64,000 nt of DNA, taken from contig SHAP01000001.1 in NCBI GenBank assembly GCA_004213555.1, positions 62,001-126,000 on the forward strand, read 5' to 3'. Shown here piece by piece: positions 5,317 through 7,510 of the stretch. Position 1 is the first letter of the stretch. Each line of letters begins with the position of its first letter. The notes beneath the pieces are model-generated. The model was not told the DNA's origin. It searched no databases and was given only the letters and a program-made list of their open reading frames with translations. The stretch comes from Phycisphaeraceae bacterium. GTDB lineage: Bacteria > Planctomycetota > Phycisphaerae > Phycisphaerales > SM1A02. A program made the position numbers and the translations under genes.

Positions 5317-6024
5317 TCAACCTCGGCGACGACGGCCCATTGCTGCCAAACCAAGGACGGCCAGCACACCTGGAGCGGGCACTTCAACAAAGCCCATACG
5401 AACGTCGTCAAATCCCACGTAGTCGCCCCCATAGACGCTCACTCGTACCGCATCGAAAGTGGCACCGGTCACAAAGCCGTGGAATCGATCTGCAAAAGAA
5501 GCATCCAATTCGACGTACTCATCTTCGACCACATCATCGCCTTGGATGAATTCCACCAAGAAGCCAGACCCAGAATCTGCATCTCTTCGCCCGCCATCGA
5601 AACCGGTCATGGTGAAGCCAAACGCGGCCATCTCACCTGGGGTTTCAAATTCAACGCTCCAAAATCCGGTCTCAGCGCCACCGGAAACCTGCAAGAAGGT
5701 GCCCTCGCCGTCGGGAAGTGTGGTGTCGTAGCCGAAGCCCTGAGGAAGGCCGATGGGAGGAAGTGGATCGCCTTCGTCTTGGACCGCAAGGGCGAAAGGG
5801 GACATGGAATCGGAGTAGTTCAAGCGAACAGTGAGAGGTGTATCGCAAAAAACGGTTTGTCCATCATCGGAAGCAGAGTCACCCGTCTCAAAGGTCTCCC
5901 GAATCACCAGATCATCTTCAATGATGCCGTCGAACAACACCGAATTGTTGAAGTAGGCCACACCTGCATAGACAGGATTTGCCGCGACCATGGCGGACAA
6001 AGGGACCAGCATTTTGGGGGACAT
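5317..6024 (-). CDS. Secreted protein with PEP-CTERM-like tail
   Basis: 235 residues. An N-terminal signal peptide ends near ANPVYA. The mature part is acidic and beta-rich (FETGDS, FDGGRRDADSGSGF, FVTGATFDAVRVSVYGG) without a recognisable catalytic motif. The C-terminus reads VPAPGVLAVLGLAAMG followed by RRRRG: a proline-containing sorting motif, a hydrophobic helix and a basic cluster, as in PEP-CTERM proteins of planctomycetes. Such proteins are thought to be processed by an exosortase and placed at the cell surface or in exopolymer. No exosortase is in the window. The start lies just behind the purine-rich tract AGAGAAGAGAGAC. A promoter with a long leader is proposed upstream. Confidence 0.8.
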   Translation of the reverse strand: MSPKMLVPLSAMVAANPVYAGVAYFNNSVLFDGIIEDDLVIRETFETGDSASDDGQTVFCDTPLTVRLNYSDSMSPFALAVQDEGDPLPPIGLPQGFGYDTTLPDGEGTFLQVSGGAETGFWSVEFETPGEMAAFGFTMTGFDGGRRDADSGSGFLVEFIQGDDVVEDEYVELDASFADRFHGFVTGATFDAVRVSVYGGDYVGFDDVRMGFVEVPAPGVLAVLGLAAMGRRRRG

Positions 6025-6095
6025 CTGGGTCTCTCTTCTCTTCGCGTCCCCTACGCCCAGCCGAAGACGACATCCCTTACGGAAGAAGCAAGAAT

Positions 6096-6247
6096 CCCTC
6101 GTCTCTCACCTCGAGGGGCCATGGCTTCTGGGCCGAACCACGATGAAGGTCTGAAACCTAAGAAAACACTCAGGACACAAAGTCAGACCGCCGCGTGGCG
6201 GATGTCGTCCGATTTGGCTGGGCGAGGTTCTCTCTCTTCTCTCGCCC
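6096..6247 (-). promoter_or_regulatory. Structured 5' leader
   Basis: Three stems in the minus-strand transcript: GGGCGAG/CTCGCCC (6220-6226 with 6241-6247) with a purine loop; GGTCTGA/TCAGACC (6148-6154 with 6183-6189) enclosing an inner stem (6157-6162 with 6169-6174); and CCCTCG/CGAGGG (6096-6101 with 6112-6117). The inner stem pairs fully only in the minus-strand RNA, where one pair is a G-U wobble; on the plus strand it is an A-C mismatch. The loop of the first stem repeats the AGAAGAGAGAG purine motif of the ribosome-binding region. It may be a cis-regulatory RNA or a stabilising leader; no known riboswitch core is recognised. Confidence 0.4.
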
Positions 6248-6285
6248 GGTCACGCGGACCAGGTGTTCGCAAACTTGCGGACACG

Positions 6286-6325
6286 CTGAATATACCCAAC
6301 TCTTGAGCAGACTCAAGAGATTCAG
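6286..6325 (-). promoter_or_regulatory. Promoter with overlapping palindrome
   Basis: On the minus strand TTGAGT (6316-6311) and TATATT (6294-6289) form a sigma70-like promoter with a 16-base spacer. A perfect palindrome CTCTTGAG-CAGA-CTCAAGAG (6300-6319) covers the -35 box and most of the spacer. CTGAAT (6286-6291) and ATTCAG (6320-6325) form a second, outer inverted pair. A repressor or activator dimer could bind here. Transcription would start near 6280. Confidence 0.5.
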
Positions 6326-6379: not shown

Positions 6380-7510
6380 TCAGTGAAGAGGGAATTCCAG
6401 CAGCCTGCACTCAATTTCGCCAACCACGAATGGAATACGCCGACTGGGGCGGAGCCCAACCTCCTTGGCCAAACGCGGGCTGCCCGTCAAAACATAGCCC
6501 CTTCCGCCAGTGGCTCCTTGCTTCATCCAATCACCCAACGCCCGGTAGAGAGGCACCAGAGCCTCTTCTTCCCCCAATCGAAGGCCCCAAGGAGGGTTGA
6601 CAAAGATCACGGCATCTTGGCACAAAGGGGTGGCGTCGAACTCCTCCAATCGCAAATCGATGCGTTCGAGGACACCTGCTGTTTGGGCATTGGCGCGGGC
6701 CGATTCGAGGGCATAGGCATCTGTATCGGACAGAATGATTGGGGCTGTGGTCTGGCCCCCCTGCTTTCGGGCCGCGGCCCGCATCCTTTTCCAGGCTTCG
6801 TGGTCAAAGCCCAGCCATTGCTCCATGGCATGTCCAGGACGCAGCAAACCAGGAGGTCTGCCGGATGCTGCCAAAGCAGCCTCAATGCCAAGGGTTCCCG
6901 CACCGCACATGGGAGCGACCACCGGCTCACCAGCTTGCAACCCCGACGCACGAACCATGGCTGCCGCCAAAGACTCCCGCAAAGGAGCGTACGCCCCGTC
7001 GCGGCGGTACCCACGGTCGGTCAGCTTCCGCCCCGCTGCGTCCAAATACACGCGTGCTTCGTCCCCGGCCCAGTACAAATCAACCACCACCCCCGATCGA
7101 TCGGGACCCGAATCCGGTCGGCGGCCTGTGCGATCCACCATGCGATCGCAAAGGGCATCCTTCACCAGTTGATTGGCGTACATGGAATTGCGAATCATGG
7201 GATGCCTGACATGGCCATGGACACTGACATAGCCATCCGGATCCAACCATTGCTCCCACGGAATGCAAGACACCCCTTCGTAGAGTTCACGGGGGCCGGT
7301 GCAAGGGAACCGACCAATTTCCACCAAGACGGTGGTGGCCAGCCGACTCCAAATCACAATTGACGCCGCTTCTGGAAGCGTCCCGTGCAAATCAACCCAA
7401 GTTCGTGCGGGCAGACGTTCTGTGAAGCCAAGTTCATCAAGCTCGTCTTCCAGCCAGTTGACCAAGCCTCGGCCGCATGGCACCCGCAATGAAAATTCAC
7501 CGTCAATCAT
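6380..7510 (-). CDS. THUMP-type rRNA (guanine-N2) methyltransferase, RlmL/YpsC-like
   Basis: 376 residues. The first 160 or so match the N-terminal ferredoxin-like/THUMP half of RlmL-family 23S rRNA methyltransferases, including VYLDAAGRKLTDRGYR with the conserved LHKRGYR-like end. A Rossmann methyltransferase domain follows, with the SAM loop VAPMCGAGTLGIEAAL near residue 205 and the catalytic NPPWG near residue 305 (usually NPPYG). It therefore probably methylates N2 of a guanine in 23S rRNA, but the target base cannot be read from sequence. The gene overlaps the pyrD stop by four bases (ATGA), so the two are probably translated together. Confidence 0.85.
   Translation of the reverse strand: MIDGEFSLRVPCGRGLVNWLEDELDELGFTERLPARTWVDLHGTLPEAASIVIWSRLATTVLVEIGRFPCTGPRELYEGVSCIPWEQWLDPDGYVSVHGHVRHPMIRNSMYANQLVKDALCDRMVDRTGRRPDSGPDRSGVVVDLYWAGDEARVYLDAAGRKLTDRGYRRDGAYAPLRESLAAAMVRASGLQAGEPVVAPMCGAGTLGIEAALAASGRPPGLLRPGHAMEQWLGFDHEAWKRMRAAARKQGGQTTAPIILSDTDAYALESARANAQTAGVLERIDLRLEEFDATPLCQDAVIFVNPPWGLRLGEEEALVPLYRALGDWMKQGATGGRGYVLTGSPRLAKEVGLRPSRRIPFVVGEIECRLLEFPLH

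Follow-up and report, generated by a model that had tools for sequence, protein, structure and literature searches.

The DNA analysed here, called the window throughout, is a stretch of 64,000 nucleotides from an uncultured Phycisphaeraceae bacterium, taken from a 2.0-Mb draft genome of 14 contigs; in public records the genus is represented by Phycisphaerae MAGs, which appear to be marine. In one intergenic region of 355 bases, with an RlmL-like methyltransferase gene on one side and an exported-protein gene on the other, lies a long structured leader, termed leader A, which carries two purine boxes. The features within the window are:

5317..6024, minus strand: exported protein gene, 235 aa, with a PEP-CTERM/MYXO-CTERM-like tail; three congener orthologues (82-92%)
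6380-7510, minus strand: RlmL-like methyltransferase gene
6289..6316, minus strand: promoter predicted by consensus scan, -35 TTGAGT (6316-6311), -10 TATATT (6294-6289)
6022..6282, minus strand: leader A, predicted structured 5′ leader RNA including the start codon; four congeners, 20-bp stem, z-score -2.4
6265..6282, minus strand: hairpin P0, predicted RNA 5′ end; stem invariant and loop freely variable in four species
6245..6263, minus strand: hairpin P1, CCUGGUC-CGCGU-GACCGGG, immediately 5′ of purine box 1
6229..6243, minus strand: purine box 1, GAGAGAAGAGAGAGA, complementary to the linker of the array described below
6200..6224, minus strand: long-range stem P2, 5′ strand, CGCCCAGCC + GGACGACAUCC; 20 pairs invariant in four species
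6138..6198, minus strand: variable arm P3; its sequence differs and its fold is retained
6085..6128, minus strand: arm P4, with loop AGGUGAGAGA at 6111-6102
6054..6075, minus strand: long-range stem P2, 3′ strand
6030..6043, minus strand: purine box 2, GAAGAGAAGAGAGA, at the ribosome-binding position
6017..6051, minus strand: hairpin P5, GGGGAC (6051-6046) / GUCCCC (6022-6017)

Structure and conservation of leader A

The original prediction of a long structured leader before a PEP-CTERM-like secreted protein is supported. No family model for the C-terminal sorting domain of the downstream protein reached its curated cut-off (PF07589, 14.1 bits against 20.7; MYXO-CTERM, 14.9 against 20), and the protein is PEP-CTERM-like only. 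The promoter proposed for it, TTGAGT-16-TATATT, was located on the minus strand at 6316-6289, and in three congeners neither hexamer differs from it by more than one base (-35 TTGAGT or TTGAAT, -10 TAnATT). Strong conservation begins at 6282, just downstream of this promoter, and runs through the start codon, which bears out the expected leader of about 260 bases. At 6319-6300 (minus strand), overlapping the -35 element, we observed a palindrome, CTCTTGAG-CAGA/TCTG-CTCAAGAG (TTGA-N6-TCAA), largely retained among the congeners, which is a possible operator for a CRP/FNR-type regulator.

The fold is dominated not by the short stems first proposed but by the 20-bp stem P2 (6224-6200 with 6075-6054), in which 9 + 11 pairs flank an asymmetric internal loop and which encloses P3 and P4. 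Taken over four species, the 59 pairs of the fold are paired in 97.4% of cells, and nearly every one is invariant. Two-sided changes number 3 in the 59 pairs; covariation inside the leader is weak because only four sequences exist, and is suggestive at best. The loop of P5 contains box 2 plus most of the start codon, and in the single species that varies the P5 pairing is by U.G. The short stems CCUGGUC/GACCGGG (with one U.G pair), GGGCGAG/CUCGCCC and CCCUCG/CGAGGG do exist. The second of these, with its purine loop, does not stand as originally folded: it competes with P1 and P2 and is absent from the best fold, where the long-range P2 replaces it, and enforcing it costs 6.3 kcal/mol. It never varies among the species compared, and this hairpin could be an alternative state of the leader.

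An inner stem had been expected to depend on a U.G pair on the minus strand, and this dependence is real, and the variable arm P3 gains 3.7-8.7 kcal/mol in stability on the minus strand relative to the plus strand in each of the four species. The leader as a whole has the better z-score on the plus strand (-3.8, against -2.4 on the minus strand). A plus-strand RNA was nevertheless rejected, since P3 favours the minus strand and the promoter, ribosome site and gene all agree with it. A retron-like or transposon-guide RNA, prompted by the long basal stem, was likewise rejected because the neighbours are methyltransferase and secreted-protein genes.

Leader A is single-copy and present in four species of the genus. 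A DNA search of 101 relatives found it intact only in three congeners, at 81-88% identity. Identity to the nearest congener is 95% and 91% in the two conserved blocks, 78% in the stretch centred on P3, 80% in the sequence preceding the leader and 81% over the aligned window as a whole. These blocks and the minus-strand z-score mark leader A as exceeding chance expectation. A covariance model had been proposed as a route to homologues before other PEP-CTERM genes; in family and order searches it retrieved convincing matches in only four congeners, and the leader in its full form is not shared with other PEP-CTERM genes. Weak matches of this model (R1) in other genera and in family f2 are short or heavily gapped, and three of those checked overlap long open reading frames; these were treated as chance, as were a DNA match inside a helicase-like open reading frame of G027 and matches to a 19-base pattern in Rhizobacter and Bradyrhizobium. 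A search of phage and viral collections gave no match. Rfam gave no meaningful match, whether by an E-value search of 601 bases around the leader or by a gathering search of the whole window, in line with the view that no known riboswitch core is present. With its promoter, a conserved structure and a ribosome site in line on a single strand immediately 5′ of the gene, leader A is, on comparative evidence, a real and conserved structured mRNA leader.

A tandem hairpin array complementary to the purine boxes

The purine repeat that had been noticed at the ribosome site is confirmed: AGAGAAGAGAGA occurs twice in leader A, and elsewhere in the whole genome at one further locus only. Among four congener genomes, all 15 exact copies of AGAGAAGAGAGA lie in leader A or in a tandem array outside the window:

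G000:C1:147894-148010 (L142 3395-3511), plus strand: array of CU-linker + hairpin units

The array unit is 71 nt in the home genus, and the contigs of three congener assemblies terminate inside the array. When the motif was widened to GAGRGAAGAGAGAG and 181 genomes of the family were scanned, regularly spaced arrays with a period of 69 to 140 nt appeared in at least 12 genera; control patterns were almost absent and a reversed control was rare. Matches to GAGAGAAGAGAGAG at G147:C38, G007:C22 and G049:C7 resemble simple purine repeats or lack an array, and are probably unrelated. A wobble-tolerant target pattern showed no excess over its control in the genus beyond the known loci. No credible Rfam match was found for the array loci, and a class-wide search with the array model gave strong matches in the home family only.

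The aligned unit comprises an 11-bp hairpin and a 16-nt linker. The linker reads CUCUCUCUUCUCUCC, the complement of the purine tract, and across the family it is single-stranded and invariant in 12 genera or more. In 36 units the 16-nt linker does not vary while the hairpin stems change and covary, although the linker core belonged to the search pattern; because of that selection our analysis of the array rests on the hairpin. Two-sided changes in the hairpin number 31, compared with 2.9 in shuffles, and every slid register falls far behind. Hairpin cells are paired in 99.7% of cases on the pyrimidine strand and in 83.5% on the purine strand, where the unpaired cells are nearly all A.C. The hairpin thus pairs on the pyrimidine strand, and the array RNA would therefore read CUCUCUCUCUUCUCUCC-hairpin.

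This strand assignment bears on a comparison with the sponge RNAs CsrB and RsmZ, in which repeated hairpins carry a GGA motif in the same sense and bind a protein. The array resembles them in its repeated hairpin units and in a motif tied to target leaders near the ribosome site, but carries the complement of the target motif. A CsrB-like protein sponge on the purine strand was dropped, as its A.C pairs turn into G.U on the opposite strand. CsrA binding was not indicated at these loci: leader A has no GGA in its boxes, and the array lies on the opposite sense strand.

The last hairpin of the array is followed on the pyrimidine strand by a T-run of at least 5 in 10 of 16 arrays, the internal hairpins in none of 24; the home-genus array, in which no clear U-tract follows the last hairpin, is not among the 10. 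Such terminator-like ends, seen in most genera, are what would be expected if the arrays were nothing more than transcription terminators in repeated form, or REP-like repeats, with the boxes as ordinary strong ribosome sites, and purine tracts are indeed common at ribosome sites. We consider this explanation very improbable. Neither repeated terminators nor REP-like repeats account for a linker that, besides the hairpin, is invariant in 36 units while the stems covary (with the caveat given above on the search pattern), for the near absence of control patterns, or for the position of box 1, which is distant from the ribosome site.

The activator operon and other boxed genes

The pyrimidine strand of the array is also the strand of a conserved two-gene sigma-54-activator operon, and the array lies just 3′ of that operon. 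The activator is a PF00158 protein (E near 1e-60) without a receiver. In 13 genomes the seeds, as we term the linkers, share the strand of the activator gene and start 829-1162 nt past its stop codon; their distance from the stop codon of the operon's second gene, in the cases measured, is 3-320 nt. This gene (L142 2536-3093) is weakly conserved and its product matched no Pfam family. A model of the second protein, of low confidence (pLDDT 61; E 0.0036 for the best PDB match), resembles receiver domains, so that a receiver-like fold is a low-confidence assignment.

A purine box stands immediately before the activator ATG in the home genus and in G024, G136, G138, G046, G025, G023 and G058, and was recognised by eye in G026 and G006. 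The home-genus activator leader (L142 1095-1299) is itself long, conserved and structured, with two purine boxes. Its second box lies upstream, with hairpins between the boxes, and it has CGACATCCGC and a similar promoter in common with leader A; judged by sequence, it is of the same layout as leader A. A further box lies behind the flagellin gene of the home genome:

G000:C3:52038-52051 (L096): flagellin box, GAGGGAAGAGAGAG, between the flagellin stop codon and the terminator

This 3′ UTR box is also found in two congeners. Separately, a similar box lies 5′ of the terminator behind another gene in G136, G137, G046 and G138.

Predicted pairing and a candidate antisense circuit

The array linker was scored against every 40-nt window on both strands of the 64 kb (25,584 windows). 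The duplex with box 1 ranked first at -27.0 kcal/mol and that with box 2 third at -20.6, against a mean duplex energy of -5.8, and the best match of the array model (R3) in the whole stretch was box 1 itself (E 3e-4). The array is also complementary to its own operon at the initiation region: the linker duplex with the activator box is predicted at -25.8, or -35.1 with the hairpin base opened. Both partners appear accessible, with predicted unpaired probabilities of 0.82 for box 1, 0.84-0.96 for box 2 and 0.65-0.88 for the seeds, compared with 0.3-0.4 for the RNAs overall. In leader A the mismatches amount to one in G002 (box 1) and one in G003 (box 2). Because neither seed nor box varies appreciably, the comparison offers no compensatory changes in support of their pairing.

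The original prediction held that the purine loop and the ribosome site could compete for one partner, either the anti-SD or a protein. The idea of a single shared partner stands, but its identity probably does not: the anti-SD duplex with the boxes is about -10 kcal/mol, and the array RNA is the best-supported partner. The P4 loop AGGUGAGAGA (6111-6102, minus strand), inside a closed hairpin, matches the 16S anti-SD core (UCACCU), with a duplex of -11.8, and is invariant except for one base. This match, an invariant core, a multi-stem junction far more elaborate than a simple target would need and an alternative hairpin only 6.3 kcal/mol above the best fold could all point to leader A as a self-contained riboswitch or protein-sensing cis-element, in which the boxes serve as ribosome site and as decoy for the anti-SD or a purine-binding protein, and the complementarity to the array is secondary. 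We regard this as unlikely, given how much more weakly the anti-SD binds the boxes than the linker does and given that the same boxes recur at the activator gene and at flagellin in different surrounding sequences.

It is also conceivable that the array acts solely in cis, from the 5′ box to the 3′ seeds of its own operon mRNA, and that the likeness of leader A reflects shared ancestry or chance. Box and seeds do lie at opposite ends of one predicted transcript in many genera, and leader A is restricted to one genus. This possibility is a remote one for us, as leader A has the two sites that rank first and third in the window for complementarity, keeps both boxes in four species with no more than one mismatch apiece, and is joined by flagellin, which carries its box in trans.

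Near-perfect complementarity between boxes and array suggests instead an undescribed antisense-RNA control circuit, and the reading that we favour is that leader A is probably a genus-specific target of a multi-seed, 3′UTR-encoded antisense RNA which masks ribosome sites. Leader conservation and fold, the structure, strand and position of the array, the complementarity and the predicted accessibility follow from the sequence; we infer that the array is transcribed as a 3′UTR or processed sRNA, that it pairs with its targets in the cell and that the sign of its effect is repression. The RNA would arise from the sigma-54-activator operon, some 80 kb away in the same genome, with each unit presenting CUCUCUCUUCUCUCC as a single-stranded seed ahead of its hairpin, and with the last hairpin bearing a terminator-like U-tract in most genera. 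Pairing of a seed at box 2 would cover the ribosome site and the start-codon region and so block translation. Box 1, about 200 nt upstream of box 2, would capture the RNA, as a second docking or decoy site, while the stems of the leader would keep the two boxes accessible and perhaps near each other. The array would also feed back on its own operon, since a purine box marks the start codon of the activator gene and, in the home genus, another lies upstream of it.

There are precedents for the parts of this scheme. OppZ and CarZ of Vibrio cholerae are autoregulatory 3′UTR-derived sRNAs (PMC7398697), and the likeness lies in an RNA from the 3′ end of an operon which pairs with the translation-initiation region of that same operon to give feedback. 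In the present case, by contrast, the seed is repeated 2-4 or more times, each with a hairpin, the operon is that of a sigma-54 activator, a two-box structured leader is a further target, and the circuit is predicted where OppZ and CarZ have been examined by experiment. LhrC of Listeria masks a ribosome site with redundant CU-rich motifs (PMC4132741) and resembles the array in that one sRNA carries several such motifs, which pair with ribosome sites rich in purines. However, LhrC comes from a free-standing gene in multiple copies and has its three motifs in loops and a linker, whereas the array motif is a linker of 14-16 nt in tandem repeats of 69-140 nt behind a regulator operon in another phylum. 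A tie to flagellar regulation also marks UTR-derived sRNAs in E. coli (PMC10578931) and the flagellar sRNAs known from Campylobacter (PMC11187230); in the present case the only pointers to that regulon are the flagellin 3′UTR box and the PF00158 activator. The word 'tandem' does not occur in a review of 3′-end sRNAs (PMC9438474). By analogy, the array system would work like OppZ/CarZ and LhrC, their features being joined in a new arrangement.

On a wider view, with the arguments for and against in balance, the circuit may extend across the family in marine Phycisphaerae, where one multi-seed RNA would coordinate a sigma-54 activator, flagellin and a genus-specific double-box leader of a secreted protein. 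Among the papers searched no study of sRNAs from Phycisphaerae came up, and post-transcriptional control seems almost unstudied in the Planctomycetota; with a concrete seed, target sites and a conserved operon, the circuit is directly testable. An mRNA whose 3′ end consists of seeds and hairpins in tandem suggests a route by which a 3′ terminator, once duplicated, may become a multivalent regulator.
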